A DNA stretch of 64,000 nt from Streptomyces parvus (GTDB lineage Bacteria; Actinomycetota; Actinomycetes; Streptomycetales; Streptomycetaceae). Shown piece by piece: positions 2,807 through 18,988 of the stretch. The notes beneath the pieces were generated by a model, which saw only the letters and a program-made list of their open reading frames with translations, ran no database searches and was not told where the DNA came from. A program made the position numbers and the translations under genes. Each line of letters begins with the position of its first letter. Positions within the stretch are counted from its first letter, which is position 1. The stretch spans positions 124,001 through 188,000 of the forward strand of contig NZ_BMRY01000007.1 in NCBI RefSeq assembly GCF_014648875.1. The letters run 5' to 3'.

Positions 2807-3298
2807 TCAGCGACCTGGCCCCGGGCCAGGCGCCAGCGGCCCGACGACGGCCGGAGGAGCGGCCTGGTCCGGTACCTGGCCGAGGACGTGTTGATCGCGC
2901 CCGGAGCGGGCAACAGCGGCCTGCGCCAACCGGGTTGCTGGGGCACGGTCCGCCGTCGCGGCGGTTTCACGCGCCTGGACCACATGGCTGATCGCCTGAA
3001 GGGCCGTACTGCTTTCGGCTTGGGCGACGCGAAGGTCGGCTGCGGAGCTGGTGATCCGTTGCAGGTCGTAGAAGGCCGGTGCGTGGCCGGGACGGGTGAG
3101 GGCGTGCAGGCGCTCCTGGTGCACGGCCACGGAGCTGTCGGCGGTGACCAGGAGGGCCGAGCGGATGTGCATGGCCGAGCGTAGGAGAGGGTCGTCGGTC
3201 GGGCGGCGGAAGGCGATCGACTCCAGAGCTTCGATCGGACCGCCCCAGGCTTCCTCGATCATGGCCGTGGCCTGGTCGAGTGCGGTGGCGTCGGGCAT
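2807..3298 (-). CDS. Helical protein with AALxRS-type C-terminal tail
   Basis: 163 residues. Residues 1-115 are predicted mostly helical with no recognised domain. The C-terminus carries the tail common to this element: a short helix ending AQAAVARS, then 31 residues rich in Ala, Pro, Gly and Val, ending GPGPGR. The same arrangement ends eleven other proteins here, including the relaxase. Possibly cargo of the type IV secretion-like system; this is inference. Confidence 0.65.
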   Translation of the reverse strand: MPDATALDQATAMIEEAWGGPIEALESIAFRRPTDDPLLRSAMHIRSALLVTADSSVAVHQERLHALTRPGHAPAFYDLQRITSSAADLRVAQAESSTALQAISHVVQARETAATADRAPATRLAQAAVARSGRDQHVLGQVPDQAAPPAVVGPLAPGPGPGR

Positions 3299-3357
3299 GG
3301 GGGAACTCCCGGAATTCGAAGGGGGGTGGATGCGGTGCTCCGGAAGAGGAGCAGGGG

Positions 3358-4302
3358 TCAGCGGCTGCGGCGCGGGGTCGACGCGCTGGCCGACGGCCGG
3401 GCCGCGAGAGCAGGCGCGGGACTCCCGGACGGGTTCAGGGCCGAAGCCGACGTGCGGCTTCGGGCGGCCATGACCCGGAGGTCGGCGGCCGTCCGGGGGA
3501 ATCGCGCGGCGCGTTGGACGGCCTGCGTGACAGCCGTGCGGCGTACGTCGAGGGGAGTGGGAGCCCGGGGAACCTGGGGTGTGCTCGGAGTGACAGCGGT
3601 GAGCGAGACCAGGTGTGCCACCTCACGGTGGATCTGGTGGCGCTCGCGTACCACCGGGGCTGGATCGGCCATGACGGCTGCCGTCGCGGCGATCAAGTGG
3701 GTGGGCGTACGGGCCGAGAAGATGGCCTCCGCACGGGTGCCCCAACCGGGTGGACCCGACCAGAGGGTGACGGCTTCGTCATCATGACGGGAGAGACGGT
3801 TGTCGATGAGGACGCCTGCTTGTCCGTCCGGGGCGATGATCTCGACGGTGCCGAGTTCGGCCCCGCCGTGGCGGGGCCAGCCGGCATCGGTCAGCGGTTG
3901 GACGGCGTCGGCCCAGCGGTATGACGGGCTCGCCAGAAAGCGCCCGTTGCCCTCGTACGCATCGGCTTCGGCGTAGTCGTGAGCGAGAGCGGTGGTCAGG
4001 CTGGCGACGATCTCGGCCGGGGTGACATGGTTGAAGGTCGCTGTCCAGCGGGGTGAGGAGACGGCTTCCTCGGATGCGGCGATCTTCCACAGCTCGAAGT
4101 CGTCGCCGAACCAGCCGATGCGGATCCTCTGGTCGGGCGACGTGACGAGGAGCTGGCAGGGACCATCATCGAGGTAGTGGTGCGGCCAGTGAGCGACAGG
4201 GGCGAAGCCGGCGTCTCCGGCTCCGTTGGAACCGGCCAGGTACATCGGGCTGACCAGTACCTCCTGGTACAGATAGTTGTCGGTGGGCTGCTGGACGCTC
4301 AT
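3358..4302 (-). CDS. Tandem DUF317 protein with C-terminal tail
   Basis: 314 residues from the ATG at 4300-4302, which has GGAG nine bases upstream. Two DUF317-like units are visible: residues about 25-115 (IRIGWFGDDFELWKI, then WTATFNHVTPAEIVASL) and about 125-215 (a second beta-rich copy ending in PTHLIAATAAVMADP). The end shows a tail variant, VMAARS followed by 32 Ser/Ala/Pro-rich residues ending PRRSR. DUF317 proteins often accompany Streptomyces conjugative elements; no activity is established. Confidence 0.7.
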   Translation of the reverse strand: MSVQQPTDNYLYQEVLVSPMYLAGSNGAGDAGFAPVAHWPHHYLDDGPCQLLVTSPDQRIRIGWFGDDFELWKIAASEEAVSSPRWTATFNHVTPAEIVASLTTALAHDYAEADAYEGNGRFLASPSYRWADAVQPLTDAGWPRHGGAELGTVEIIAPDGQAGVLIDNRLSRHDDEAVTLWSGPPGWGTRAEAIFSARTPTHLIAATAAVMADPAPVVRERHQIHREVAHLVSLTAVTPSTPQVPRAPTPLDVRRTAVTQAVQRAARFPRTAADLRVMAARSRTSASALNPSGSPAPALAARPSASASTPRRSR

Positions 4303-4426
4303 GGTCGAGACTCCGGGCACGTAGGAGGGGAACGCGCCCGCGTGCGCGGGAGGGTGAAGTGCTGGGGCGCACGCGGACGCGGTAGCAGCGGCGAGCCGGC
4401 ACTGGTTCTCAGCACCGCCACCCGGC

Positions 4427-5266
4427 TCACCGCCCCCGGCCCGGGGCCGACCGGGCGGTGACAGCCGCCGACACCCGGGGCTGGGGCTGCGTCGCGTGGC
4501 TGAACAGGTCATTCGGCGCGGCACTCCGGCGCAGGGCTGCTGCGGTCCGGGCACCGTCCCCCGTCAGCGGGACATTCGTATGGGTCCGCGTTGCCGCCGC
4601 GACGCGAGCGGGGCTCGACGAGGTTTTGAGCGCGGTGAAGGGTTCGCTCCAGTGCTCGATGGTTGCGTAGACGGCCCCCAGCGACTGGCCGGCATCGGTC
4701 AGGACGTAGGGGGCGCCGTGGTGCGAACCGGCGCGTCCGACCAGGCCGTCGGCCTGCATCCGCAGAAGCCGGTGCCGGGCGGAGGGGCGGTCCACGCCGA
4801 TCTCCTCGGCGATGTGACTGAACCGCAGAGGGCCGTTAGTGCCGAGGGCCTGGATAACGCCGGTCGTGTGCCGAAGGTTTAGACGGCCCAGAGCGTCCTC
4901 GACGCGTTCGGCTTCGGCCATCGTCTGGAGCGGCAGGTGGGCCCGGGACCAGTCCGACAAGGTGCGGTGCACGGGGGCGAGCGACTCGCCGAGCGCGCTG
5001 AGCTGGTAGGTGCCCCTACGACGGACATCGGAACGGGTGATCAAGCCGTCGGCCTGCATGTACATCAGCCGCTGGCTTACTGACTGCTCGCCGACGAAGG
5101 GGAGCTGGGCGGAGATCTCGCGCACCCGCATGGGGCGGTTTTCCTGGGCGAGGATCATCGTGGACCAGGTGGTCCACTTCGGCCCGATCCGGGCAATCGC
5201 GTGGTCGATGCGCTGAGGGTCGACCGAGTCGAAGCAGAAGGCGGGGGGCTGCGTGGGGCTGGGCAT
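4427..5266 (-). CDS. Tandem HxlR-type winged-helix protein with tail
   Basis: 279 residues. The start (ATG 5264-5266) has GGAGAGAG upstream. Two HxlR-like winged-helix modules are seen: residues about 15-100 (IGPKWTTWSTMILAQ, then QRLMYMQADGLITRSD) and 120-205 (RHTTGVIQALGTNGPLRFSH, then HRLLRMQADGLVGRAG). HxlR proteins normally have one module and act as dimers, so this may be a built-in pseudo-dimer. The C-terminus ends in the element's tail (AAALRRS plus 31 residues, last RGR). It could regulate the element or act in a recipient if exported; neither is shown. Confidence 0.7.
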   Translation of the reverse strand: MPSPTQPPAFCFDSVDPQRIDHAIARIGPKWTTWSTMILAQENRPMRVREISAQLPFVGEQSVSQRLMYMQADGLITRSDVRRRGTYQLSALGESLAPVHRTLSDWSRAHLPLQTMAEAERVEDALGRLNLRHTTGVIQALGTNGPLRFSHIAEEIGVDRPSARHRLLRMQADGLVGRAGSHHGAPYVLTDAGQSLGAVYATIEHWSEPFTALKTSSSPARVAAATRTHTNVPLTGDGARTAAALRRSAAPNDLFSHATQPQPRVSAAVTARSAPGRGR

Positions 5267-5289
5267 GAGTGCGCTCTCTCCGGTAGGGG

Positions 5290-6114
5290 TCATCGGGAGC
5301 GGGGGTGGGAAGCCGTGCTGGAGATACCGGCGGAGGGGGCTGCATCTGGGTGGACAGGGCGGCCAAGGTTCGCCGGGGCACCGCTGCGGCCGAGGGCAGC
5401 GGCCACACGCGACGTCGCCGTACGAGCCGCACCAAGGGCGGCCTCGCCGCGGGACGTGAGCGAGAGGAGTTGCCCCAGCCGGTACGGGCTCTCGCTGGTG
5501 TCCTGGTGCAGTAGCCCGTCGGCGAACTTCCGCCGGACGGTCGAGGGCAGCACCTGGGGACGTCGGCCCGTCCCGCCAGAGAGGAAGGGCTCCTTGCCGA
5601 GCGCGGTCCGGCACAGGCGTAGATCGCCAAGTTCGACCACTTCGAGAGCCCTGAGCTGGCGCTTCACATCTATCGCCCAGTCGTCGTCCCGGCCGGCACG
5701 CTGTTCCCGGTTCTCCTCGTGGGTCTTCGTCGCCGAGGGCTCGGTATCCGGATCGGGGAGAAGGCGCTGGTACGCGGAGACGGCCTCGATGAGCTGGTCG
5801 TAGGCCCGATCCTGCTTGGTGAGGAGTTCTCCGAGCTTCGGGATCGATGTCCGCAGGAACGCGTACGAAGTGCGGGCCCTGCCGAGTTCGCCGCGCCCGA
5901 TGGATTCGAGGAGCCGGAAGGCATCCCTGGCAGCAACCGTCACCCGGTCGTGCTGCTCGTTCAGCTTGTACGCGGACGTGATCACCCGAGTCGAGACTCG
6001 GTACAGCGGATCGGCAGGACGATACGTGGTGTTGAGCATGTTGACGTTCGAGATACCGAGCGCGTCGGCGACGAAGTGCGTACCGGGCTCGGTGTTCGGG
6101 TCGTAGGGGTTCAC
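5290..6114 (-). CDS. Hypothetical protein with C-terminal tail
   Basis: 274 residues. The N-terminal 150 residues are predicted helical (RVTVAARDAFRLLESIG, FLRTSIPKLGELLTKQDRAY); the later part (residues 150-235, VKRQLRALEVVELGDLRLCR) may be another small wing-like domain. The C-terminus has RVAAALGRS followed by 30 residues ending HPRSR, the shared tail. The ATG at 6112-6114 overlaps the stop of the upstream gene by 4 nt, so translation is probably coupled. No family recognised. Confidence 0.65.
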   Translation of the reverse strand: MNPYDPNTEPGTHFVADALGISNVNMLNTTYRPADPLYRVSTRVITSAYKLNEQHDRVTVAARDAFRLLESIGRGELGRARTSYAFLRTSIPKLGELLTKQDRAYDQLIEAVSAYQRLLPDPDTEPSATKTHEENREQRAGRDDDWAIDVKRQLRALEVVELGDLRLCRTALGKEPFLSGGTGRRPQVLPSTVRRKFADGLLHQDTSESPYRLGQLLSLTSRGEAALGAARTATSRVAAALGRSGAPANLGRPVHPDAAPSAGISSTASHPRSR

Positions 6115-6779
6115 TTGGCCGTCTCCATCCGGGCGAGCAGGGAGCGGACCAGGGTGGGAAGGCTGTCGGGACCGTCGCCGAGCCGGACGTGGTCAGTCAC
6201 CTCGTCGAGGACGTACGTGGCGTCTTCGAGAAGACCGCCGGAGATTTCCATGCAGGCGTCGGTGATCCGGGAGGCAGCGAGCAAGGACTCGGAGAGCACC
6301 TCGACGTAGTCGTCCGGCGCGAGACCGGCGGCGTCGGCCGCAGTACGGATCGCCTCCAACTCCAGCGCGCTGAAACTGAAGTCGAAGTCATGGCCCTGCT
6401 TCATGCTGGCCGGGGCGGAGAAGGCGGAGACCGGTGGTTCCGTGGGTATGCCGACGCGTGTGCAGATCCGGTCGACCGAAGCGGTCAGCTCGGCCAGGGA
6501 CTCGGTGAGCCATCCCAGGGCGGAGGCGTAGGAGGCCAGGGTGAAGAGACCTGCCGGTGTCGCGGGGAGCGGATCGTCGGCCACGAACTCTTCGAGCCGG
6601 TCGTTCAGCTCGCAGATCACCTGGGGCCCGGCGGACAGAGCACCGAGTACGGGATGCAGGTAGGAGCGGCTGGCGGCCGTCGGATAGTCGGCGGTGAGGA
6701 TCCCGGAGACGCGGTGCGCAGCATCGGTGAGCAGGCTCGCCAGTTCGGCACGCGTGAGCGGGGCGTGATCGGGGGTCAT
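6111..6779 (-). CDS. Hypothetical helical protein
   Basis: 222 residues, predicted all-helical and acidic, with no recognised domain. It overlaps both neighbours by 4 nt (6776-6779 and 6111-6114), placing it in a tightly coupled set. It lacks the AALxRS tail and ends LLARMETAK, so it may act together with one of the tailed neighbours, for instance as a chaperone or antitoxin-like partner of the RelE-like protein encoded just upstream. That role is a guess from gene order. Confidence 0.65.
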   Translation of the reverse strand: MTPDHAPLTRAELASLLTDAAHRVSGILTADYPTAASRSYLHPVLGALSAGPQVICELNDRLEEFVADDPLPATPAGLFTLASYASALGWLTESLAELTASVDRICTRVGIPTEPPVSAFSAPASMKQGHDFDFSFSALELEAIRTAADAAGLAPDDYVEVLSESLLAASRITDACMEISGGLLEDATYVLDEVTDHVRLGDGPDSLPTLVRSLLARMETAK

Positions 6780-7246
6780 CGCTGGGGAGCCTTTCGAGAG
6801 GCAGCGGCCGGAGACTGGACTGCTGCTGGAGAGGTCGACGGAGCAGCCGCCGACTGGTTCGCAAGGGGCGAGCGGGCGCGGGCGGCCTGCACCCGGGCCG
6901 CCGTACGGGAGTCCGCCTCGGTACCTCGCTCAGGGCCGGTACGGAGGTGAGCGGAGCGGTAGACCGCGTAGTCCTTCCGGCTTCCGGCGGCAACGAGGTA
7001 GACCTCGCGCTTGTGGTTCGAGTCGGGCGGGGCCGGGCGGAACTGGATGACCATCCGGTAGGCGACGGACGGATCCACGTACACCTTGTGGTATCCGGCG
7101 AGACGCCCCTTCAGGGGTAGGCAGTCGTCGCTTCCGTGGACCAGGTTCTGTAGCTCCAGCAGCGCCAGATCACGGATGCGATCGGGGAGGTTCCGCAGAT
7201 CCTCAATGGCGTCGGGATGCGCCGCGAAGGCGAAGCGTGCGCTCAC
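6776..7246 (-). CDS. RelE/ParE-like toxin-fold protein with C-terminal tail
   Basis: 156 residues. Residues 1-100 resemble the RelE/ParE fold: N-terminal FAAHPDAIEDLRNLP with helices, then PLKGRLAGYHKVYVD, AYRMVIQFR and EVYLVAAGSRKDYAVY. RelE-family proteins are usually 85-100 residues, act as mRNA interferases or gyrase poisons and pair with an antitoxin. Here the domain is followed by a 50-residue tail with AARARS and 30 residues ending APQR. No standard antitoxin gene is adjacent; the coupled 222-residue downstream gene is the only candidate partner. A toxin domain plus the tail shared with the relaxase suggests a delivered effector, which is inference. Confidence 0.65.
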   Translation of the reverse strand: MSARFAFAAHPDAIEDLRNLPDRIRDLALLELQNLVHGSDDCLPLKGRLAGYHKVYVDPSVAYRMVIQFRPAPPDSNHKREVYLVAAGSRKDYAVYRSAHLRTGPERGTEADSRTAARVQAARARSPLANQSAAAPSTSPAAVQSPAAASRKAPQR

Positions 7247-8010
7247 AGCAGCCTCCCCTGTACCGAACGCTGTACCGGTACGGCTGCCGCGGACTGGTGG
7301 GCTCCAGGGGCGGTCTTCGGTATCTCGGAGCTGCCGGCCGAGCGGGCGAGGGCGGCACGGGTCCGGAGGGCGGCAGTTTCACCGAGGTGGTCCGGTGGCT
7401 GCGGCAGCGGGGTGCTGCGGTCGTCCAGCCAGCGGAGAGCGGTCTCCTCATCGGGGAAGGTGCCCTCGCGCAGCGTGTACGTGTGGGCGTTGGAGTCCCC
7501 CTCTTCGAGGAAGAGGCGAACAGGTGCCTGAGCGGCCTGACTGTCACGGGTCAACGTCCATGCTTCGCACGGGTCGTAGTCCGAGGTCTGGCTCTCGATG
7601 ACCTCGTACCGCGTGCCTGACTCCCGGATCTGTGCCTCGATACGAACGGTGAGATCGTCGGCGGGAGTGGAGAATCCGGCACCTACTTCGGTTATCTGCT
7701 CGGGTGGGCAGCCGTGCTCGATCAACCAGTTCTGGGCGAAGGGGACCGTGGCGTGGTAGGCCGTCTCCATGGTGAACGTGTTGAGGCTGAGATCCCGCGC
7801 CACCTTGATCGCGGCTACCTGCGGCTCGCCGGGGACACCCCACGTGACCGACCCGTCGTGAGCGACGACGTAGGAGTGTGAGCCGTGAGGAGCGGTGTGG
7901 TGCTCGGTCAGGACCGTCAGGTCACCGGACCAGAACTGCTGCTCCGCGTACTCCGAGTCAGCGTCGGCGGGTGCAAGATCGTCGAGGTGAAAGTCGAGTT
8001 CCGTGCTCAT
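7243..8010 (-). CDS. Hypothetical protein with AALARS tail
   Basis: 255 residues from ATG 8008-8010, which overlaps the stop of the DUF4913 gene by 4 nt. Residues 45-210 form an alpha/beta sequence with no recognised family (SYVVAHDGSVTWGVPG, QIRESGTRYEVIESQ). The C-terminus is a clear example of the shared tail: RTRAALARS followed by 31 residues. Its stop overlaps the RelE-like start by 4 nt, so DUF4913, this protein and the RelE-like protein are probably made together. Confidence 0.65.
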   Translation of the reverse strand: MSTELDFHLDDLAPADADSEYAEQQFWSGDLTVLTEHHTAPHGSHSYVVAHDGSVTWGVPGEPQVAAIKVARDLSLNTFTMETAYHATVPFAQNWLIEHGCPPEQITEVGAGFSTPADDLTVRIEAQIRESGTRYEVIESQTSDYDPCEAWTLTRDSQAAQAPVRLFLEEGDSNAHTYTLREGTFPDEETALRWLDDRSTPLPQPPDHLGETAALRTRAALARSAGSSEIPKTAPGAHQSAAAVPVQRSVQGRLL

Positions 8011-8606
8011 TCCGTCGCTCCCGACTGTTCGGGCGCCGGGGTGACCAGCACTCGGTGGTTCGGCCGGGTCGGGCTCGTCGTACACGCGGCGAAGGGGCCG
8101 TCGGGGGCCCGGAGGTGGACCAGCGCCTGGTCCAGGTGGTCGCGGTGCCAGGTCGAAGGACCTGACAGGCCGGCCTCGGTATCAGTGAGCTGCTGCCACG
8201 CGAGCCAGAGCGCGTGCAGCCGGGCGACGGCCTCCGGGTGTTCGTCCCACCGCGCGCACCACGGACGGGAGGAGCTGATCTCTCGGCCGTAGACGGGGAG
8301 GAAGAGGTAGTTCACCCAGTCGCTGAGTGCGGTGAGTTCGGCGGCGTACGCTTCCCCGCCCAGGGCGAGGATGAACACCGAGGCGGGGCCCTCCCCCTGC
8401 GCGGCGTCGGCCGCCTCGGCTTCCGGAACGTCATCCGTGTGCTGGCTGGCAACGGGTACGGGGTCGGAGCCGAGGCGGTCGAGGAGGGCGCCGTGCTGCC
8501 TGACCTCGGCCATGGTCTTGGCGAGGGTGCTGGCAAGGTCGTCGAGATCCCCGTCGGGGATGCGGAACGGCTCGGGGTTGGGGGTGGTCGGGCTGGTGTC
8601 GGACAT
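8007..8606 (-). CDS. DUF4913 domain protein
   Basis: 199 residues. The second half (residues about 90-155) carries the DUF4913 pattern: WVNYLFLPVYGRE, RPWCARWDEHPEAVAR, LHALWLAWQQLT. This family is common in actinobacterial plasmids and conjugative elements and has no known activity. The start ATG at 8604-8606 has GGAG nine bases upstream; an ATG 15 bp upstream is possible but lacks one. A copy of the recurrent motif lies at 8645-8694, just before the gene. No shared C-terminal tail. Confidence 0.75.
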   Translation of the reverse strand: MSDTSPTTPNPEPFRIPDGDLDDLASTLAKTMAEVRQHGALLDRLGSDPVPVASQHTDDVPEAEAADAAQGEGPASVFILALGGEAYAAELTALSDWVNYLFLPVYGREISSSRPWCARWDEHPEAVARLHALWLAWQQLTDTEAGLSGPSTWHRDHLDQALVHLRAPDGPFAACTTSPTRPNHRVLVTPAPEQSGATE

Positions 8607-8644
8607 CGGGGCGTGCTCCATCTGTGAGACGGCGACATGCCCGA

Positions 8645-8694
8645 GAGGATCCGGAGAATCCGCGGTTTGGCGCGGCCGGAAAAGTCCGGTAGTG
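8645..8694 (-). promoter_or_regulatory. Recurrent upstream motif, copy 1
   Basis: On the minus strand it reads ACTACC, about 14 bp, GGCCGCGCCAAA, then CGCGGATTCTCCGGATCC. Near-identical blocks lie at 15475-15524 and 18240-18290, and a shorter version at 28934-28951, always in the same orientation and 38-81 bp before a minus-strand start. Here it precedes the DUF4913 gene. Probably a promoter or operator; the bound factor is unknown. Confidence 0.5.
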
Positions 8695-8699
8695 GGGCG

Positions 8700-9900
8700 C
8701 TACCCGCCCGCGCAGCGAGGACAACGAGGGAAGGGCGGTGCCAGCAACTGCAAGGCACGGGCGGCTTGTTGAGGGACGACGCCGTTGCCGAGCGCGGTGA
8801 GCTGCGCCGGTCGTCCGAGTCCCGGCGTGGCGGTGACCCAGCCGTCGTCGAGGCCCTGCATCCATTCCACGAAGTCGGCGCGGAGTCGTCCGGCCGCGTC
8901 GGTGGGCTCGGGGACGGGACGGGTGAGCATCTCCCATCGGGTGATCGCTGCTGCGTACGGCCCCCATCGCCGGTCCGCTCCGCGGACTCCGTCGACTCCT
9001 CCGTCCAGAGCGGCAGGACCACCGCCGACAGGGGAGGACGCCACCCCTTCCCCGGGCGGCGGCCCGGAGTCCCCGTGTCGCTGGCCCTCGGCGTGGGCAG
9101 CAGCGACGCTGCCGCACTGGGCAGGGTCATGTCCCCGTTGCCGTGACGCTGGTTCGGCGAGCCCTTGATCCCGTCCGACGCCTTCGGGGTCGGCAGCAGC
9201 AGCCACTCGACCTCGTCGGCCAGGTTCGGACCGTGCCCCCCGCTCTTCCTCTTCGACGGATGCTGCGAGCCGCCGTTCTTGCCGATGTTGCTGGTCGGCG
9301 TCTTCAGCAGGGTCTCCGGTGGGCCAGGCGGCGAGGAAGGTCCGTTCGCGGCGGTGCGGGGCCCCGACGTCGGAGGCACGAAGCACGAGCCATGTCGCGT
9401 CGTACCCGAGGTCGGCCAGGGATCCGAGTACGGCACCGAGTGCCCGCAGAGCAGGCTGACCTGTGGTGTCTCCCAGACACCACGGGCAGAATTCCACGTC
9501 GCCAGGGGAACCGGCGGGGGAGGTGAGGAGGCCGCGCACATTCTCGATCACAACCAGGCAGGGTCGGAGGGCATCGACCGCACGGGCGACGTGCAGCCAG
9601 AGCCCGGAGCGGGTCTGGGCGTTGAGACCGGCCCGGCGGCCAGCAACGGAGACGTCTTTGACAGGGGAAGCCGGCCGTCAGGACACACACCCGGGGAACG
9701 AGGGACCAGTTGACGGCTGTGATGTCGCCCAGATTCGGGATGCCCGGCCAGTGGCGGGCCAGGATGCGCGAGGCGTTCGGATCAACCTCGGCGTGCCAGG
9801 CCAGCGTCCCGCCAAGGGCGGACTGCACGCCCAGGTCCAGCCCCCCGTACCCCGAGCAGAGCGAGCCGATGAGCGGAGGGCGCACGATGGTGGTCCGCAT
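8700..9900 (-). pseudogene. DNA cytosine-5 methyltransferase with a one-base frameshift
   Basis: Corrected for one extra base this encodes a C5-cytosine methyltransferase of about 399 residues. Motif I is SLCSGYGGLDLG near residue 15, motif IV TAGFPCQ near residue 75 (catalytic Cys), motif VI IENVRGLL, motif VIII HRRERTF, and the C-terminal motif LGNGVVPQQAARAL. The frame breaks at 9657-9659 immediately after PCQ: the coding strand reads TGTCAAAGACG where TGTCAAGACG would keep the frame. As written neither half is active, unless ribosomes shift +1 at the rare AGA codon. An assembly error, decay or programmed shift are all possible. It begins just after the stop at 9902. Likely role: protecting the element's DNA from restriction. 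Confidence 0.8.
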
Positions 9901-9901: not shown

Positions 9902-10483
9902 TCACCGCCCCCGTGTGGTCCGGCTCGGGGCAACAGCAGCCGGTGGAACGGTGGAGGGCGCTGCGGCGGGAAGCGGGGCTGCGGTTGTGGACCGGCTGAG
10001 GGCGGCCCGGAGCTGCCGGGGCGGAGGCGGCGCCGCTGCTGCCGCAGCGTAAAGGGAGTAGGAGGCGTCCCGGAGGGATGCGTCCGCCAGACCGAGCGCG
10101 TCACCTATCACCAGCGTGGCCGCTTCGCGCGCATCCATCGCGTCGGGCTGGTCGCGCATGTGCTCGGTTCGCTCCAGGAAGGAAAGCTGGTGGGCCACCG
10201 AGCCGAGCGCGGAGGCCACCTCCCCGGCAGGTTCTACAGCGGCGGCGAAGTCGCTGATGACCCTGGCCGTGTGGGCGTCCAGATCCGGAGACACGGTGCG
10301 GATGAGGATCTCGTCGCCCAGGGCGGTGATCCTCTTGCCGAGTTCCGAGATCTGCTTGGCGACCGTCACGCTGTCCGGTCCGCGGTGAGGATCTCCGGGG
10401 ATCGGGAGCTTGCCGCGTAGGGCGTCGAAGTTCTCGGCTGCGGTGCGCAGGGCTCGGGCGTCGGATACGGGGGTGGTGTTCAT
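9902..10483 (-). CDS. Helical protein with AALSRS tail
   Basis: 193 residues, mostly amphipathic helix up to residue 150 (SELGKRITALGDEILIRT, AAAVEPAGEVASALGSVA), then an Ala/Pro run and the shared tail: LRAALSRS plus 28 residues ending RTTRGR. No recognised domain. It lies between the DnaB-like and methyltransferase genes. Possibly a structural or delivered protein of the element; function unknown. Confidence 0.65.
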   Translation of the reverse strand: MNTTPVSDARALRTAAENFDALRGKLPIPGDPHRGPDSVTVAKQISELGKRITALGDEILIRTVSPDLDAHTARVISDFAAAVEPAGEVASALGSVAHQLSFLERTEHMRDQPDAMDAREAATLVIGDALGLADASLRDASYSLYAAAAAAPPPPRQLRAALSRSTTAAPLPAAAPSTVPPAAVAPSRTTRGR

Positions 10484-10521: not shown

Positions 10522-11691
10522 TCAGCTGGGGCCGAGGGACCGTGGTCGTACGGCGGCTGACCTGGGCGCACCTCGGGATAGTGCCGAGGGTGGCGAGGGG
10601 AGGCTCGGTGAGCTGCGGGCGAGGGCCGCCTGCACCTGGGCGGGGCGGGGCACGTTGCCCGAAGAAGCTGGGGTCTTCGGCGCCGGAGGCGGGTCGCCGG
10701 TCGCCAACTGCCAGCGGGTGCGCACCTCGTCGAGCGGACCGAGTACGTAGAGCGCGTGGTTGATCAGTGGCCCGGGGCCCAGGGCCTCGTCCTGGGCCAA
10801 GGCTCGGACGGCGCGCGCGGAAGCGGCTGCGGTGCGGGTCACGGAGGACCGCATGACCCGTTCACCCAGCCATTCCGCGCTGCCGGGGCCTACGCCGTCG
10901 CAGATCGCGGTGAGCTGCTCGCCCGACAGCGTGCCGTCCGCCAGGAGGCCCCGCCGCTGGGCTTCCCAGAGCAGCGTGACCCGGTCGATGGGCTCGCCCC
11001 GGTGGTGCAGGGCACCGAGACACCGGTAGAGCCGCCCATGGCCCGGGTCGGCGAAGTCCCCCGGCCGCAACCAGCCCACCACCTCCTCCATGCCCTTCGG
11101 CTGCTCCGCGAGGACGGCGAGCAGGAAACGCTCGTCCTCGGCAACCTGGTCGGCCTGAACCGTCGGCGTGGTCGGAACGGTGGTCGGCGGGGCTGGCGGC
11201 GCGACCGGACGCGGTTCGGTACCCCAGCGCCGCGCGAGATCGGTGAGCACCCCGGCCAGGACATCCGCCGACCGCAGCGCACCCTCGACCTCTCCCCGCA
11301 GGGCGTCGGTCCGAGCCGCCTGGTGAAGACGGATCGCGTGCTCGGCAACGGTCCGGTGGATCGCCCCCTCCAGCACCATGCGGCCGTACACCGGAGCATG
11401 CTCGGGACGCGGGCAGGCCGAGACCAGAGTGTGGGCGTACACCGCGGTCAGCCCTCGGACGTGACGGTCGGCCTCGACGACGGAGTCGGTCACCCACGAC
11501 AGAGGCACCGGACCATCAGCCGCTGCCGCCGGGTGACCGTCGTGTCGGAGCTTCCGCAGCGCGGTGAACAAGGCCCGGTGAACCGGACGGTCGAAGTGAT
11601 CGGGCGCGAGCCAGTCCAGGTGCGCGAGCTGGTTCGGGTCGAGCAGTACCGAGCCGAGGACTGCCTGCTCCGCCCGCAACAGCGGGTTCAT
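10522..11691 (-). CDS. DnaB helicase N-terminal-like protein without motor domain
   Basis: 389 residues. Two copies of the DnaB N-terminal helical domain are visible: residues about 3-110 (LRAEQAVLGSVLLDP, DHFDRPVHRALFTALRKL) and about 190-300 (DERFLLAVLAEQP, DPGHGRLYRCLGALHHRG, SGEQLTAICDG). No Walker motif or RecA-like ATPase follows; instead the protein ends with the shared tail QVQAALARS plus 29 residues. In DnaB this domain mediates hexamer packing and primase contact. A delivered DnaB-N duplicate might contact recipient replication proteins, but that is speculation. It overlaps the gene upstream by 4 nt. Confidence 0.7.
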   Translation of the reverse strand: MNPLLRAEQAVLGSVLLDPNQLAHLDWLAPDHFDRPVHRALFTALRKLRHDGHPAAAADGPVPLSWVTDSVVEADRHVRGLTAVYAHTLVSACPRPEHAPVYGRMVLEGAIHRTVAEHAIRLHQAARTDALRGEVEGALRSADVLAGVLTDLARRWGTEPRPVAPPAPPTTVPTTPTVQADQVAEDERFLLAVLAEQPKGMEEVVGWLRPGDFADPGHGRLYRCLGALHHRGEPIDRVTLLWEAQRRGLLADGTLSGEQLTAICDGVGPGSAEWLGERVMRSSVTRTAAASARAVRALAQDEALGPGPLINHALYVLGPLDEVRTRWQLATGDPPPAPKTPASSGNVPRPAQVQAALARSSPSLPSPPSALSRGAPRSAAVRPRSLGPS

Positions 11692-11945: not shown

Positions 11946-12172
11946 GATGGGACTCCTGAACGCGGAGAGGTGGGGGCGCCCGACTGCCTGGACGAGGGCG
12001 CCGGATCGGCAGGGAACAGCGGTCCGGCTTGCCGTTCTCCGGGGTGGCGTCCGCGACGGCGTCGAAGACGTCGACCGTCGCCCCGACCGCTCGTGGACGG
12101 TGCCCCGGTCGATCGGTGCCTGATCCAGAGGCCGCCGGCTGCGATGCAGAAGCGCCTCGGGGGCGGGGGCGA

Positions 12173-13958
12173 TCATGCCGACAGCTCGAAGTCGTCGTGG
12201 CCGATGGTCTTGGCGAGGGCTCGCTCGGTGATCGCCTTCGTGGCACGGGCGGAGGCCGGCCCGACGACCTTGGCGGAGGGCTCCTTGTACCAGGGCTTGA
12301 GGTTGAGCATGGCGACCCGGATCCCGGTGGCCAGCAGCAGCACCTTGCCCTTCGGGAGGGCGCGGATCGCGTCGGGCGGCAGGATCCGCTCGGTACGCAT
12401 GCTCACCGAGGTGGACTTGCCACCCTCGCTGGTCGACACCGAGGTGGTCTGGACGTCGTGGTCACCGACCTGCCGACTGAGACGGTCGGCGAAGTCGGCG
12501 TCATCAATGCCCGAACCGATGATCTTGACGGTGGCGGCGGAGTACAGGGCGTCCATCCCGGCCTCGCCCCAGCACCGCTGGCCCTGCCGATAACTCTGCA
12601 AGATCGTCATCGGGATCACGCCCCGGCTGCCCAAGTGGCTGTAGAGATCGGGGAGATCGGATATGCGGCAGACGTTCGCGGCCTCGTCGAGCACGCACAG
12701 AGCAGGCGGGTCGAGTCGCCCGCCGGAGCGCTCGGCGACGATGACCGCCGCGCGCATGACGGCGTCGGCCGCCGCCGCGATGATCGCGCTCGCGCTGCCG
12801 CCGCCGTCCTTGCTGAGGAGGTACAGCGTGTCGCGAGACGTGGCGAAGGCGAAGGGCTTGAACTCGGGGAGGTCCTCGTTCGGGGTGACCCAGGCGGCGA
12901 CGTCGGGGTCGAGCAGGCAGCTCGCGTACTGCCTCGCGGTCTCAAAGATGCCATCGCGGGTTTCGGTTGCGCCGGAGACGGTGCCCTGGAGCTGGGCGGC
13001 GACCGCGTCGTGGCCGGCGTCGGTGAGCAGGTCCACCGGGGTGCGGTCGGCCGGGGTGGCGAGCCAGGCCAGGACGTCGGTGATCGGCCGCCGGTGGCTG
13101 GCGGCGGCCAGGAACAGCGCGCCGAGGGTGTTGCTCGCGGCGGTGGACCAGAAGTCGGAGCCCGACGACTCGTCCACGCTCGCGGAGACGAAGTGCCCGG
13201 CCAAGCGTTTCGCCCCAGCCAGGTCGCGGGCGTCGGCCAGGATGTCCCACCACATCTCTCGCGGATGGTGAGCGATCTGCTGCGGATCGAGGACCCAGAG
13301 CGTGCCGACCTCGGCGCGGGCGTCCACCGTCGCGGTGAAGGCGTCGTTCGCGGCCTTGTTACTGGTGAGCAGGACCGGGCCGGGAGCCGAGAGAATCGCG
13401 GGGATCGCCAGTCCGGACGTCTTCCCGCTGCGCGGGGCCATGATCGCGACGATCACGTCCTCCCAGGAGGCCCGGACCTCGGCGCGACCGGGGTCGAGGG
13501 TGCCGAGCAGGATGCCGCGGTCGGCGGGCGCGACCTCTTTTACGCTCCCGGTCGCTGAGGGAGGGCCGGAGACTCTTCGCCTTCGTGGTGCTCTCCTTGT
13601 CCAGCAGCGGTGCCAGCTCGCCCTTCCGGGCGAGGCCGGTCCTGGAGCCGGAGCGCCAGCGCATCCACAGCACGAGGCCGGTGGTGGCCAGGGCCAGAGT
13701 GATCAGGCCGGGGACGAAGCGCACGCCGACCAGCAGCGCTGTGGTGCTCAGGGTCGGCCACAGCATCTCGGGGTGCAGTAGGGCGTCCGTCGCGCGGAAC
13801 GGGATCCACGGTCCGCTGCCGACAAGGGAGTTGGTGACGTTGCCGGTCAGCCAGGCGAGGGAGCCGAAGGATATGGCGGCGCCGAGGACGCCGAAGAGGA
13901 GGTAGAGGAGCGCGTCCGACCCGGTGGTGGTCGAGGGCGCACTGGTACGTGGGGGCAC
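12173..13958 (-). pseudogene. VirD4/TraG-like coupling ATPase with a one-base frameshift
   Basis: With one extra base removed this encodes about 594 residues of a type IV coupling protein: two membrane helices (about residues 17-40 and 65-95), Walker A APRSGKTS near residue 175, Walker B-like ALCVLDEAANVC, and the family pattern IPMTILQSYRQGQ. Coupling proteins dock the relaxase-DNA complex and other substrates at the channel and pump DNA. The break is at 13538-13541, where the coding strand reads CGTAAAAGAGG instead of CGTAAAGAGG, between the membrane part and the ATPase. The start is GTG 13956-13958 with AAGGA upstream. An intact ATPase frame from 13456 would lack the membrane anchor. A functional element needs this gene, so an assembly error or a recoding event deserves testing. 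Confidence 0.8.
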
Positions 13959-14053
13959 GGCGGTTCCTTGAGGGTGAGAGCGGGCGACGGCGGGGCGCGC
14001 TCGGCTCTCGTGTCGTTCACGGGTCTGCTCCTTGACGGCCGGAGGGGAACGTT

Positions 14054-14149
14054 TCAGCGCTCGTGGCTGGCAGGCCGGGCCATGGGCGGGGGCGGCGTGG
14101 CGGGCGCCGGAGCACTGATCTCGACGCCGGCCAGGACGACCTGAGTCAC
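14054..14149 (-). CDS. 31-residue peptide coupled to the relaxase
   Basis: A GTG at 14147-14149 overlaps the relaxase stop by 4 nt, the pattern seen for many genes of this operon, and opens a 31-codon frame ending in RPASHER. The first half is hydrophobic (TQVVLAGVEI), the second Pro-rich. It could be a real small protein or a translational link to the VirD4 gene downstream. Evidence is limited to the overlap and codon use. Confidence 0.3.
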   Translation of the reverse strand: MTQVVLAGVEISAPAPATPPPPMARPASHER

Positions 14150-15417
14150 AGTCGAGGGCCTGGCGCGCGCGGCGGGATGCTGGCCGCGCTGGGCTGCGTC
14201 GATCGAGCGTCGGGAGACGCGGAGACCTGAGCCTTGGCCGCTGCAGGTGAAGCGGCGACGGCGGCGCCTCGGAATTGGGGGAGCCATCGAGAGCGCGTCT
14301 GCGCCTGGTCCGAGGGCTGTTGTGGACGGCCGACACCGAGCAACTCGTCGTCTGAATCAACGAGTTCCGACATGGCCGAGTGGACGAAGTCCTCGGCGAA
14401 GCCGAACCGGTCGGCGAGCTGGAACGCCCCATCGTCGAGATCGGTGATCTGCTCCCCTGCCGCCTCCAGCGCCTCCCGGATGCGCTCCAGCGCGCCGTGC
14501 TCGGGATCAAGGAGGTGGTCGAGAGCCTGCTTCAGGTCGGCGCCGGTCTCGGCAGACCTGATCTGTTCGGTGAGCCGGAGGAGTTCCGCCCCGGCGGCGT
14601 AGGGCCCGAGCGGATTCGCAGAGGTGAACGCCTTGGTGGTGTCCAGGGCAGGGTCGAGGTCGACACCGTAGCGAGCGGCGCGGAGCATCTCGGCAGCGTG
14701 GGTGGCGATGGCCGCCCGGTCATCGGTCGGGGTAGTGGTGGGGAGGCGGTGACGTCGGCCGTACCAGTCGTCGATCTGCTGGAAGCCGGCGTGCTTGAGG
14801 AGCGTGGCGGACAGGTCGTCGCTGGCGCCCTTGGCCGAGACGCTGCCGCTGGGCTCGGCGGTGATGGTGATGGAGGGAGAAGGCATGCGGGTCTCCTGGG
14901 TGCGGGGCGTCGATTGCGGAGCGATGGGCAGGTGGCCCAGCTCGGCGAGAAGATGGCACTCGGATTGCAGACGGAAGGCGTCGCGATAGCCGTTGTGCAG
15001 GCTTCCATCCTCGCGAGCGATGGTGGCCACGACGTGCACCTGCCGTGGCCGGTTACGTACGACGATCCACCGACAGGCATCCGGATCACCTTCCGGAGCG
15101 ATCCCGGTGACGTCCACCAAACGCCGGGCGACAGCGGCCCACTGCGCGTCGGTGAGGTCCGGCTGCCGAGGATCGGAGCGAACCGAGCAGATCCACGTCG
15201 GCTGCGCGGGTACACGAGTACCGAGCCGTTCGACGGGTGCGTCGAGGGCGTGCGCCAAGTAGGGCAGCGAGCCGGGCTCGGCAAGCAGTTCGATCGGGGC
15301 TCCGTGACCTTCGCCCGCGATCAGCCGAGGGCTGACGTGGTCGCCACGTTCGCCGGGACCGTACAGGTACGAGAGCAGCCCCATGGTGTTGCTGGCACGC
15401 TGCAGGTGAGCGATCAC
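14146..15417 (-). CDS. Relaxase/mobilisation nuclease
   Basis: 423 residues. The N-terminus has the relaxase pattern of actinobacterial elements: MIAHLQRAS, GLLSYLYGPG, HVSPRLI, then CRWIVVRNRPRQVHVVATI with the metal-binding His near residue 128. It should nick the transfer origin and travel covalently with the strand through the VirD4/VirB machine. Residues about 208-262 form a module (LKHAGFQQ, then RHRLP, then MLRAARYGVDLDPAL) also seen in the proteins at 16146 and 17008. The C-terminus is a tail variant, AAVAAS plus 33 Ser/Ala/Pro-rich residues ending PGPRL. Start GTG with GAGG eight bases upstream; motif copy 2 lies 58 bp before it. Confidence 0.8.
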   Translation of the reverse strand: MIAHLQRASNTMGLLSYLYGPGERGDHVSPRLIAGEGHGAPIELLAEPGSLPYLAHALDAPVERLGTRVPAQPTWICSVRSDPRQPDLTDAQWAAVARRLVDVTGIAPEGDPDACRWIVVRNRPRQVHVVATIAREDGSLHNGYRDAFRLQSECHLLAELGHLPIAPQSTPRTQETRMPSPSITITAEPSGSVSAKGASDDLSATLLKHAGFQQIDDWYGRRHRLPTTTPTDDRAAIATHAAEMLRAARYGVDLDPALDTTKAFTSANPLGPYAAGAELLRLTEQIRSAETGADLKQALDHLLDPEHGALERIREALEAAGEQITDLDDGAFQLADRFGFAEDFVHSAMSELVDSDDELLGVGRPQQPSDQAQTRSRWLPQFRGAAVAASPAAAKAQVSASPDARSTQPSAASIPPRAPGPRL

Positions 15418-15474
15418 GGCGTCTACCTCGAAGGAGTAGTGGACACGAGCCGGGCGTTCGGGCCGTCAGACGGA

Positions 15475-15524
15475 GAGGATCCGCAGAATCCGCGATTTGG
15501 ACCGGCCGGAGTTCGCTGGTAAAT
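15475..15524 (-). promoter_or_regulatory. Recurrent upstream motif, copy 2
   Basis: Second copy of the block described at 8645-8694. The core on the minus strand reads CCAAATCGCGGATTCTGCGG. It lies 58 bp before the relaxase GTG and between that gene and the stop of the gene at 15622, so it probably drives or controls relaxase transcription. Confidence 0.5.
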
Positions 15525-15621
15525 GCCGCCGTCTATCCCGAGGCATCGGGGCCACGTAAGGCGACACGTTCGAGTGCGCCCGGCTTCCGCTGGTACGTGG
15601 CGAGGAGCGGTGGCGGGGCCG

Positions 15622-16119
15622 TCAGAAGTGAGGGTTCTCCGTTGGCCGGTCGGCCTCGCTGGCGGCCTGGAGCAGCTCGGCGAGGTCTCCGGGCTCGGAG
15701 GAGCGCTGGTCGATCCACCAACCGGCGCGAGTGACGAAGCGCGCGGCCTCCTCGATCGCCTCCCACTCCCTCTCATCGGTTTCCCCTTCGAGTACCAGGG
15801 CGGTGTAGGCAGCGGCGAGGACCTGGTGACGACAGCGCACGCCCCAGGCGACGGCCCGCTCGGTCCCCTCCAGCGGAGGCATCCGGTACTGCTCCGACCA
15901 GGCTTCCGACTCGGCCTGCTCTTCGGCTCGCTTGGTCTCCAGCCAGGCCGCCTTGTCCTGCTCGTCCCCCTCCTTGGCGGCCCGCCAGCAGTCCGTGCAC
16001 TCCTGCTTGGCGAGCCATTCGGCGAAGCCCGCGCGGCGATCGGCTGCCCGGCCGGACAGGTCGCGCTCGGTGTGGTGGCCGCACGAGTGGGTGATGGGCC
16101 AGATGGTCTTCACAGCCAT
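15622..16119 (-). CDS. Hypothetical protein with possible zinc site
   Basis: 165 residues. The start (ATG 16117-16119) is followed by HSCGHHTERDLSG and, about 30 residues later, ECTDCWR, a C/H arrangement able to hold one zinc ion. Residues 45-160 are helical and strongly acidic (EGDEQDKAAWLETKRAEEQ). It has no shared tail. It lies just upstream of the relaxase and may help process DNA or the relaxase, but no family is recognised. Confidence 0.6.
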   Translation of the reverse strand: MAVKTIWPITHSCGHHTERDLSGRAADRRAGFAEWLAKQECTDCWRAAKEGDEQDKAAWLETKRAEEQAESEAWSEQYRMPPLEGTERAVAWGVRCRHQVLAAAYTALVLEGETDEREWEAIEEAARFVTRAGWWIDQRSSEPGDLAELLQAASEADRPTENPHF

Positions 16120-16145
16120 GAGAACTGCTCCTTATGGAAGGTGAG

Positions 16146-16913
16146 TTAGCGATTTCGGGAGAACGCGATGCGCGGGTCGACGGGGCGACCCGAAGCCCCG
16201 GAGGCAGCGGCGGCGGGAGTCGGCGCCTTGTCCCGGAGGCCCGAGCGCGCTGGGCTCGCTGCGAGCGCGGCGGCGTTGCGAGATTTGTTGGGCGTGGCGC
16301 CCTGAACGGGGAGGAGGCGCTCGGCGCTCGTGGGCGCGGGAGCGCGGCGCAGCGCCGCGTCGTGGGCGAGGCGGGGATGAACAGCGACCTGGAGACCGGA
16401 CCGCTGCATCGCCACCGTGGCGCTGGCGACCTTCTGCACGGACTCGGTGCGGTCGGCGGTGACGGGCAGCGTGTAAATGTCCAGATTCGGGTCCAGCCGC
16501 CAGCCGTGCTCCTCCAGGATGAGCTGGCCGCCGAGCGCCGAGGATTGGTCGCTGGTGGCCGCAACGATGCCGAGCTGCGGATGCTCGGCGAACGCCACCT
16601 CGGGATCTGTGCGCGGGGCCCGGTCACGGGTGGAATTCGCACGGGAGGCCAGCGAGGGGTCGTACGCGGCGTCCACGTCGACCTGGTAGCTGGCCTCGCG
16701 CAGCAGCGCGACTGCCCGGGAGGTACGCCCCGGTCCGTCACGCTGCTGATCAGCCAGTGCGTACAGCGTCGGCTGGTCCGGTACGGGGTGGAAGTCGAGC
16801 CGAGCCAACATCCACGCGGTGGAGACGAGTTGCTTCGGGTTCGCGGCGACGATGCCGTGGTCAGGGTGGTGACCGAAGGCGACATCGGGAAGTGATTGGT
16901 AATGGGTGGGCAT
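16146..16913 (-). CDS. Tandem-repeat protein with C-terminal tail
   Basis: 255 residues made of two related modules of about 75 residues: the first starts DVAFGHHPDHGIVAAN, the second EVAFAEHPQLGIVAAT, each followed by a beta-helix-beta pattern (LARLDFHPVPDQ..YAL; LEEHGWRLDPNL..YTLP) and a helix ending V-x-V. The second halves resemble the module in the relaxase and the 17008 protein. The C-terminus has AALAAS plus 35 residues ending FSRNR. The ATG at 16911-16913 lacks a strong SD, so the start is approximate. Unknown function, probably linked to the relaxase. Confidence 0.65.
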   Translation of the reverse strand: MPTHYQSLPDVAFGHHPDHGIVAANPKQLVSTAWMLARLDFHPVPDQPTLYALADQQRDGPGRTSRAVALLREASYQVDVDAAYDPSLASRANSTRDRAPRTDPEVAFAEHPQLGIVAATSDQSSALGGQLILEEHGWRLDPNLDIYTLPVTADRTESVQKVASATVAMQRSGLQVAVHPRLAHDAALRRAPAPTSAERLLPVQGATPNKSRNAAALAASPARSGLRDKAPTPAAAASGASGRPVDPRIAFSRNR

Positions 16914-17007
16914 GGCTGATCCATCCGGTGTGGGCGTGCAGGGCAGGGGCCAGGTCCGGGATGGTTCTGGTGGTACGAGGCACGGAGGACTCCGAGAAGG
17001 GGGGCGG

Positions 17008-18159
17008 TCAGCGACCGGGGGCGGACGAGGGGCGGGCCGGAGGTACGGGACGAACGCCCGCCGCTGTGGCAGGGAGCGCCGGGGAAGCACAACGCTGCGC
17101 AGCCGTCGGCGAGGGGGCGAGAGCAGCACGTACCCGTGGTGGCGCAGGCGTCGACGCAGCGACCTGGTTCTCGCGGACCCGGTTCTTCCTGGGGTGCACG
17201 GCATGGCGGTCGGCCAGATCGCCGCGTATCGCGCGCAGCTCGATCGCGTAGGAGTCGAGGCTCTCAGCGATGGTACGCAGACGCTGTGCGTAGCGGTGAT
17301 CGGCTGGTTCGCCGAACCCTTCCCACCACTCGGCCGTCGTGTCGAGGATCTCCACGACCCGCTGAAGAACGCCGTCGCCCGGGGCGGTCACTTCGCTCAG
17401 GTTGGCGACCATGTCGCGCGTATGCGTCGACGCCTGGATGTGTTTGGCCAGAAACCCGAGGCGGTCGCCGAGGCTCGTCTCCGGGATCCAGGGGGGAGGC
17501 ATGTCGTGTTCCAGCAGGTCAGGGTCGCACGAGACATCGAAGCCGTCGGCCCGCAGCATGTCGAAGGCCCGGGTCACCACCAGCCGCTGCTCCTCCGGGT
17601 CGGTCATGGCCGAGGGCAGCCGGTGGTAGTGCTCACCGCCGAACTCGACGGCGGGGACAAAGCCCGTGCGGTGGAGAACCGCGTCGGCGGCGACGTCGTG
17701 AGCGAACCGTTTCGGCTCCGGTCGTGGAGGTACGCCGAGCTGATCCAGACGGGTGTCGACGGCGGCCAGCAACCTTGTGACGTCGCCGCGGTGCTGGGCG
17801 TGCGGGCCGTCCGGCTCCGAGTCGTAGATCACTTCGTAGGCTGCCGGCTCATCGCTGCGGTGGCGGGTGACGAGCCAGCTCTCGGGATACCCGGGTGGGT
17901 GCTCGCTGGACGGTTCCTGCGGCGGCGAGATGATCACGTCGCTGCCGTCTGGAAGCGAGGCATGGACGAAGTAGTCGCTGAGGCCGTACTCGACGGTGCA
18001 GACCAGGCCGCGTTGCCGAAGGGGGGAGGTGAGGTGCCCGTACCCGCGTTCGTGCTCCGGATCGCTGTCCGGCGCCCGTGAGGCAGCGGCCCCGCTTGCA
18101 CGCGCGGTGATACGCGCGCCCTCCCGTTGGAGGGTAACCAGGGGCTGATCGGGGGGCAT
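17008..18159 (-). CDS. Relaxase-module protein with C-terminal tail
   Basis: 383 residues. Residues about 30-145 hold a beta-rich segment (CTVEYGLSDYFVHASLPDG, ESWLVTRHRSDEPAAYEV). Residues 155-210 carry the module shared with the relaxase (LHRTGFVPAVEFG, HYHRLP, MLRADGFDVSCDPDL). Residues 230-320 are long helices. The end has RVRAALAPS and 33 Pro/Ala-rich residues ending APGR. It follows motif copy 3 at 18240. Sharing a module with the relaxase suggests a role at the transfer complex; no activity can be assigned. Confidence 0.65.
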   Translation of the reverse strand: MPPDQPLVTLQREGARITARASGAAASRAPDSDPEHERGYGHLTSPLRQRGLVCTVEYGLSDYFVHASLPDGSDVIISPPQEPSSEHPPGYPESWLVTRHRSDEPAAYEVIYDSEPDGPHAQHRGDVTRLLAAVDTRLDQLGVPPRPEPKRFAHDVAADAVLHRTGFVPAVEFGGEHYHRLPSAMTDPEEQRLVVTRAFDMLRADGFDVSCDPDLLEHDMPPPWIPETSLGDRLGFLAKHIQASTHTRDMVANLSEVTAPGDGVLQRVVEILDTTAEWWEGFGEPADHRYAQRLRTIAESLDSYAIELRAIRGDLADRHAVHPRKNRVRENQVAASTPAPPRVRAALAPSPTAAQRCASPALPATAAGVRPVPPARPSSAPGR

Positions 18160-18239
18160 TGGTGGTCTCCGTGGTCGAGCGCCCCATGGTCGACGACACG
18201 GGTCAACGTGAGGGGCGCGTGTATGGGTACCGGTGTTAT

Positions 18240-18290
18240 GAGGATCCGGAGATCGGCAGGTTTGGCCGAGCCGGAATGCGGTGGTAGTGG
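18240..18290 (-). promoter_or_regulatory. Recurrent upstream motif, copy 3
   Basis: Third copy of the block at 8645-8694. On the minus strand it reads ACTACCACCGCATTCCGG, then GGCCAAACCTGCCGATCTCC. It lies 81 bp before the gene starting at 18159 and directly after the stop of the gene at 18293. Confidence 0.5.
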
Positions 18291-18292
18291 CG

Positions 18293-18988
18293 TCAGCGGG
18301 ACCGATGGGGCGGCGTCGGCGACGCCGGAGGTACAGGGGGCGGGGTTGGTGGAGCTGTGCTGGTGCCGGAGGCGGATCGCTTGAGAGCCACTCGCGCCCG
18401 CTCGGTCTGCGAGGGCTGCTCGGATTCGGGCCGGTTGGTCACGTATTCAGCGGCCCGTACCAGCGCCGGACCGTGGAGCGACAGCTCGTGCGCGTCGTGC
18501 CAGCCCTCGGCGTTGCGGATTTCCTGGGCCCGGCTCTCGTAGAGCGCCCGGGTGCCGGGGAGGGAGCCGTCCATGATCGTCATGACGTCATCCCACTCGC
18601 GCTGGATCTGTCCGGCTCGTTTCAGGGCGGCATCGATGCTGCTCAGGCGCCGGAGATCCTCGCTGATCGGCCCCCCGAGGTAATCGGCACCGGTGGCTGC
18701 GGCGCGGACCCCGGCCAATACGTCGGGGCCGTGAGCGAGGAAGACCTCGACGTGTTTCCACGCCTGGGCGTCGCGTACGACCTTGCCGTCCGCGTAGCCC
18801 TTCTCGTCCACCGGCCAACCGTCGTGGTCGCAGAAGTAGTCCGAGACGGCGTCCCAGGCGTCTTCTGCCTGCCTGATGCCGGCAGAAGCGGAGGCCAGTG
18901 CCGGGACGTGTTGCCGCCACGCCATGTGGTCGTTGCCTGCCGGTGACTGATCTTCGTTGGGTGAGGGAGAGCTGGACGAAGTGGGCAC
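18293..18988 (-). CDS. Hypothetical protein with VALKRS tail
   Basis: 231 residues from GTG 18986-18988, chosen for AAGGA six bases upstream. Residues 35-195 are helical (AWRQHVPALASASAGIRQ, DAWDAVSDYFCDHDGWPVD, AQAWKHVEVFLAHGP). The C-terminus is the shared tail ARVALKRS plus 26 residues ending HRSR. The frame is open to 19243 and the extra 85 codons have good codon use, so either the protein is longer or a separate small gene sits there. No family recognised. Confidence 0.6.
   Translation of the reverse strand: MPTSSSSPSPNEDQSPAGNDHMAWRQHVPALASASAGIRQAEDAWDAVSDYFCDHDGWPVDEKGYADGKVVRDAQAWKHVEVFLAHGPDVLAGVRAAATGADYLGGPISEDLRRLSSIDAALKRAGQIQREWDDVMTIMDGSLPGTRALYESRAQEIRNAEGWHDAHELSLHGPALVRAAEYVTNRPESEQPSQTERARVALKRSASGTSTAPPTPPPVPPASPTPPHRSR

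Follow-up and report, generated by a model that had tools for sequence, protein, structure and literature searches.

A shared C-terminal tail on unrelated proteins of a Streptomyces conjugative element is a candidate tag for type IV secretion

Twelve proteins of a conjugative element of Streptomyces parvus end in a common tail of ∼40 residues, in which a helix bearing an AALxRS-type motif precedes a disordered, mostly Arg-terminated end. Their genes lie in a window of 64,000 nucleotides (contig NZ_BMRY01000007.1, positions 124,001 to 188,000), which also encodes the core of a type IV secretion system (T4SS), and are named here by their first position in the window. We consider the tail to be, with a probability of roughly 0.6, a lineage-specific recruitment or export tag for the element's own T4SS. 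This reading is suggested by the presence of the tail in ∼14 non-homologous families and never in T4SS core families, by its conservation at the protein level, fixed spacing, scarcity of acidic residues and predicted helix and disorder, by its absence elsewhere in the genome and its adherence to the VirD4 lineage, and by the cargo-like functions of tailed proteins in sister lineages.

Anatomy and spread of the tail

The detection of tails, in the window and in 80 Streptomycetaceae loci retrieved with the VirD4-like protein as query, used an iterated position-specific motif profile whose threshold was the 99.5th percentile of shuffled tails. Matches in these loci share the consensus R-[VAT]-x-A-A-[LR]-x-R-[ST] in the helix motif, from which a nearly constant ∼31 residues lead to the C terminus (median 31, 5%–95% range 27–35). 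The linker is composed of A (21%), P (21%), R (11%), S (11%) and T (9%), with D and E together at 2.4%, and Arg is the last residue in ∼75% of tails. No Pfam domain matches the ∼40-residue tail. The twelve open reading frames (ORFs) named in an original prediction, made from the letters of the window, exist and end as listed there. Eleven of them score above the profile threshold; the remaining one, 14146 (FRGAAVAAS), falls below it, its tail being weak here and clear in its orthologues. The length of 26–35 residues, the Ala/Pro/Ser-rich composition and the prevalence of a final Arg (9/12 in the window) are also as predicted.

AlphaFold2 models of two tailed proteins, 6776 and 7243, place the motif in a helix that is followed by 25–30 residues of very low confidence. 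In 7243, the helix formed by residues 206–225 holds the motif, and residues 226–255 have a predicted local distance difference test (pLDDT) score below 50. In alignments of the 5290, 6776, 9902 and 7243 families, few columns are invariant or nearly so, and the motif residues are among them; across 21 orthologues of 5290 they account for 4 of the 14 invariant columns.

Across the 80 loci, the profile marks 525 of 1424 same-strand genes as tailed, versus 2 of 330 on the opposite strand, and a strict regular expression gives 190 same-strand ORF matches and none on the opposite strand. Few control sequences exceed the profile threshold (9/1754 shuffled and 21/1754 reversed tails). The tailed genes fall into ∼14 unrelated families, which bears out the claim of a tail shared by proteins with unrelated N-terminal domains; DUF317, HxlR and DnaB-N are recognized by Pfam and the RelE-like fold by its model. 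The tail is carried by most members of the DnaB-N (71/77), RelE-like (60/61), DUF317 (41/42), 5290 (36/37), 9902 (34/36), HxlR (37/45), 18293 (37/47) and 7243 (43/62) families. The profile has no match in the VirD4, SCO6880, VirB4, VirB6, VirB8, DUF4913 and 6111 families of these loci, and the proposed absence of the tail from VirB4-, VirD4-, VirB6- and VirB8-like proteins and from DUF4913 is thereby upheld.

Genomic confinement and a second tail class

By a simple regular expression, the tight motif is confined to the element. Genome-wide specificity was assessed by a six-frame profile search and by reading of the matches, of which the 8-Mb genome of the strain itself gives 31. Ten are tails within one 16-kb block, one lies ∼3 kb away and 20 are scattered. 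None of the scattered matches is the C-terminal tail of a predicted gene in the 19 regions covering their places; they lie in a different frame, at the end of a gene that lacks the tail or in the interior of unrelated proteins. Clusters of matches occur in two further genomes that encode a VirD4 of 81%–95% identity (G294 C8:71-85 kb and G057 C1:3032-3053 kb). The 16 Streptomyces genomes without VirD4 contain no multi-gene cluster, and the 20 matches inspected in ten of them include no real C-terminal tail. The tail class follows the VirD4 lineage, at least three strong AALxRS tails being present in 72 of the 82 loci with a VirD4 of at least 80% identity and in none of the 65 loci with a more distant one. 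The clustering of matches with SCO6880/VirB4/VirD4-type T4SSs that had been anticipated, and the lack of random spread among streptomycetes without VirD4, are thus both observed. Association with a VirD4/VirB4 T4SS together with absence elsewhere, and a C-terminal position on several unrelated proteins, here ∼14 families, are among the features expected of a T4SS C-terminal translocation signal.

The comparison was extended to the surroundings of more distant VirD4 genes. In distant SCO6880/VirD4 elements, another tail is shared, in which (A)[FY]P is followed by a Pro/Ala-rich, basic, disordered end (FP tail). It is found on a Micromonospora plasmid (L088) and on chromosomes of three further families, the loci being L088, L129, L157, L160, L164, L184, L185, L190 and L203. 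In L088, the FP tail is borne by at least six non-core proteins and by none of the core T4SS proteins. Among the proteins with FP tails are ArdC-N/DnaG-type primases (L129, L160 and L184), other primases (L157, L164 and L088), a Zeta toxin (PF06414, E 6e-64), an AbiEii toxin, a Fic protein of Leifsonia and a 1777-residue GT4-conflict and NUDIX protein. The Zeta and Fic genes are adjoined by short untailed genes, putative antitoxins, for which Pfam gives no match. Enrichment of FP tails was first counted on loci partly picked for showing them (27/188 genes). In 20 loci retrieved without prior inspection, the enrichment is moderate and weaker than in this first count, at 10 of 289 genes, in 5 loci, compared with 12 of 1595 genes of Streptomyces loci (p = 7e-4).

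A study of polyvalent proteins (Iyer et al., 2017, PMC5512222) proposes delivery with the DNA for protein classes including ArdC-N/primase and conflict proteins. The FP-tailed families (primase, Zeta, AbiEii, Fic and GT4-conflict) are of the classes proposed for such delivery, which supports the export reading. The polyvalent proteins resemble them in comprising ArdC-N, primase and conflict-type enzymes that belong to T4SS elements and are predicted to be delivered early. In the passages of the study examined there is no mention of a shared C-terminal export tag, whereas here unrelated single-domain proteins share one.

Relaxase recruitment and alternative readings

The original prediction placed the tail on the relaxase itself, and this part does not stand. 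Protein 14146 has a relaxase-like N terminus from which the HUH histidines have been lost (RNRPRQVHVVAT versus RHAADHIHIVAT in the true relaxase), and the H-x-x-D-H-x-H pattern of the true relaxase is degenerate in 14146 and in its listed orthologues. It therefore lacks the metal-binding histidines that characterize a MOB relaxase, and these residues rule it out as a working enzyme. The catalytic relaxase is a 590-residue PF03432 protein encoded ∼1 kb upstream of the window (G000:C7:121261-123033, equivalent to L002 17261-19033), convergent with the tail block and near genes that we take to be WhiB-like and DUF2637-like. Its end, like those of its homologs, is basic and disordered (PRNRPPRR), without AALxRS. 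Since the tail sits on a dead paralogue and the catalytic enzyme is free of the motif, the equation of the tail with a relaxase signal fails, and recruitment of the relaxase by another route is probable. The wider claim of a translocation signal keeps the confinement of the tail to proteins encoded with the T4SS and the tracking of VirD4 by tail class, and loses its relaxase pillar. Orthologues of 14146 end in RAALATSPA or, in several Kitasatospora-type loci, in a canonical RTRAALARS tail. A shorter, untailed relaxase-like family (∼165–180 residues), in which HUH has become LDIVAT or LDLVAT, adjoins 14146 orthologues at L025 4181, L031 6461, L061 6423 and L064 6439.

In the mechanism that we favor, VirD4 or an accessory subunit would be the docking site of the helix motif, and threading into the ATPase would begin with the disordered basic end. 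The tailed proteins would then reach the recipient together with the DNA or before it, aiding establishment of the element. The catalytic relaxase would probably be recruited otherwise, perhaps through MobC-like partners or an adaptor, and the tail on the dead paralogue 14146 invites the hypothesis that it is this adaptor. Divergence between lineages may account for the two docking motifs, the AALxRS of Streptomycetaceae and the (A)[FY]P of several further actinobacterial families.

Several observations weigh against an export tag. Most of the proposed cargo of the window has no function recognized by Pfam, NCBIfam, PADLOC or PDB sequence search. The AALxRS motif is missing from the tails of the true relaxases in L002, L032, L066, L079 and L084, so the tail is not carried by the cognate catalytic relaxase; other systems do not require this of protein effectors. 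No tails lie near VirD4 in some conjugative Streptomyces and other relatives, among them two deposited plasmids with a VirD4 of 56%–64% identity (L086 and L087), and the tag is therefore not required for transfer as such. Streptomyces loci with a VirD4 of ∼70% identity (L146–L149) have many Arg-ended, A/P-rich tails without AALxRS, possibly a third tail class.

The tail could instead be a docking tag that acts inside the donor, gathering proteins on a common partner such as the relaxosome, a replication complex, VirD4 or the membrane, with no export. The DNA- or replication-related appearance of several tailed proteins (tandem DnaB-N, tandem HxlR winged helix and relaxase paralogue) and the untagged catalytic relaxase would fit such a role. 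We nevertheless regard it as unlikely, as tailed toxins of toxin-antitoxin (TA) type and the RelE-fold, GT4-conflict/NUDIX and ArdC/primase proteins suit delivered effectors better than a donor scaffold, and a basic disordered end of fixed length suits threading. Far less probable is a stability or regulatory degron common to the proteins of the operon and unconnected with transfer. A protease tag could look like this, as a short motif at the C terminus of many proteins encoded together, but the tail tracks the VirD4 lineage and is missing from the DUF4913 and 6111 genes of the same block, and we know of no degron of this form. The least credible account attributes the similarity to biased composition or to a DNA repeat dispersed among high-GC gene ends, and not to a functional peptide: shuffled and reversed tails hardly ever match, matches are strand-specific and the remainder of this high-GC genome contains no in-gene tails. 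CTC is the codon for 215 of 296 motif Leu residues, compared with a share of ∼40% in the remainder of these genes (loci L005–L084), a skew which hints that some copying of tails between genes may have occurred. The invariant motif Ser is split between AGC (146) and TCN (298) codons, so conservation is at the level of protein and not DNA, and a DNA-repeat origin is rejected on this ground.

The export-tag reading can be compared with known T4SS signals. Those of Agrobacterium VirE2/VirF and of conjugative relaxases are C-terminal, basic, disordered and Arg-containing, as is the tail described here, which differs in its fixed helix motif ∼31 residues from the end and in the absence of that motif from the catalytic relaxase. 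BID domains are borne by the Bartonella effector proteins (Beps) and by the plasmid-encoded Fic toxin VbhT, and the XVIPCD of Xanthomonas/Stenotrophomonas effectors (X-Tfes) is a domain far larger than the tail. Pfam matches neither an XVIPCD nor a BID domain in the tailed proteins of the window or in the FP-tailed relatives. The XVIPCD resembles the tail in being one C-terminal module on many unrelated proteins of one T4SS, and some X-Tfes have an untagged immunity partner (PMC6536674, PMC8262851); the tail is shorter, at ∼40 residues, and belongs to conjugative elements of monoderm Actinobacteria. Beps, with BID and a basic tail, and VbhT likewise have a C-terminal signal with a basic end. 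VbhT is a TA-type Fic toxin carried as cargo on a conjugative plasmid (PMC5675462), comparable to the FP-tailed Fic protein of Leifsonia. Unlike the BID systems, the elements described here combine a short helix and disordered tail with many cargo families per element.

Delivery of plasmid proteins by the F-plasmid T4SS has been demonstrated (PMC8406263), bacteria-killing T4SS effectors are known (PMC6536674) and the interbacterial T4SS effectors of Bartonella originate from TA-type Fic toxins (PMC5675462). For Gram-positive T4SSs, a 2025 review describes effector delivery as a long-standing question, with known functions nearly all in DNA transfer (PMC12857230). No description of the AALxRS tail was found in the openly available literature that was searched.

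More tentatively, and with more doubt than confidence, we propose that the conjugative T4SSs of Actinobacteria serve as protein-delivery machines in general. Within a lineage, a whole set of cargo (anti-restriction/primase proteins, TA-type toxins, conflict enzymes and dead relaxases) would bear that lineage's own interchangeable C-terminal address tag, to be read by its coupling protein; in Streptomyces, a +1 frameshift at a rare AGA codon would gate the synthesis of this coupling protein. With a dozen proteins of one element marked by a portable tag of 40 residues, and a second tag class in other families, there is now a question testable with reporters and a means of listing candidate cargo across Actinobacteria. 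Streptomyces is best known for TraB-type transfer of double-stranded DNA; if the proposal is true, VirD4-type elements that bring proteins of their own are also widespread in this genus.

Gene content and candidate frameshift sites

Table 1. Tailed genes, an untailed partner gene and T4SS core genes of the window
Feature	Position	Strand	Basis
Tailed protein, 163 residues, unrecognized	2807–3298	−	Motif and tail 2810–2929, LAQAAVARS + 31 residues
Tailed DUF317 (SPDY) protein	3358–4302	−	PF03771 E 1e-20; tail 3361–3477, RVMAARSRT + 30
Tailed tandem HxlR-type winged-helix protein	4427–5266	−	PF01638 E 4e-19; tail 4430–4549, RTAAALRRS + 31
Tailed protein, 274 residues, unrecognized	5290–6114	−	Tail 5293–5409, RVAAALGRS + 30
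Untailed partner gene overlapping RelE-like 6776	6111–6779	−	Possible antitoxin; 0 profile matches in 61-member family
Tailed RelE/ParE-fold protein	6776–7246	−	AlphaFold2 model and Foldseek; tail 6779–6895, RVQAARARS + 30
Tailed protein, 255 residues, unrecognized alpha/beta fold	7243–8010	−	Tail 7246–7365, RTRAALARS + 31
Tailed helical protein, 193 residues	9902–10483	−	Tail 9905–10015, QLRAALSRS + 28
Tailed protein with two DnaB N-terminal domains	10522–11691	−	PF00772 E 3e-26; tail 10525–10638, QVQAALARS + 29
VirD4-like coupling protein, predicted receptor, two frames joined near 13540	12173–13952	−	PF12696, PF02534
Relaxase-like paralogue, degenerate HUH	14146–15417	−	Weak tail 14149–14274, FRGAAVAAS + 33
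Tailed repeat protein, unrecognized	16146–16913	−	Tail 16149–16280, RNAAALAAS + 35
Tailed protein, unrecognized	17008–18159	−	Tail 17011–17136, RVRAALAPS + 33
Tailed helical protein, 210 residues	18293–18925	−	Tail 18296–18400, RARVALKRS + 26
VirB4-like ATPase (ATPase part), untailed	19264–20769	−	NF045971 E 1e-18
SCO6880 family T4SS protein, untailed	21285–22757	−	NF042935 E 3e-133
VirB6/TrbL-like protein, untailed	22902–24284	−	PF04610 E 0.0016
VirB8-like protein, untailed	24312–24959	−	Original prediction and gene order (relative L085), not a profile

The AlphaFold2 model of 6776, a protein with no Pfam match, has a RelE fold, with M. tuberculosis RelE1 (9g12) as its best Foldseek match (E 1.6e-5, TM score on the target 0.75). 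Gene 6111 is possibly its antitoxin partner. Foldseek gives no match below 0.001 for the model of 7243.

The VirD4 gene is split at 13536–13545 (minus strand) at AAA-AGA-GG, and a +1 shift there brings the two parts back into one frame. The split recurs in 51 of the 80 loci, always at or near CGT-AAA-AGA-GGT, and the extra base is absent from the 29 loci in which the gene is in frame. A gene for a Dcm-like DNA methyltransferase (∼8700–9900) is split at 9655–9662 (minus strand) at TGT-CAA-AGA-CGT, also by +1 at AGA, as it is in 66 of 67 places in the window and related loci. AGA makes up 282 of the 436,188 codons of these loci. The coding strand of the 27-kb region contains AAAGA in three places, of which two are the VirD4 and methyltransferase split sites. 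Both splits look like candidate programmed +1 frameshifting on the rare AGA codon.

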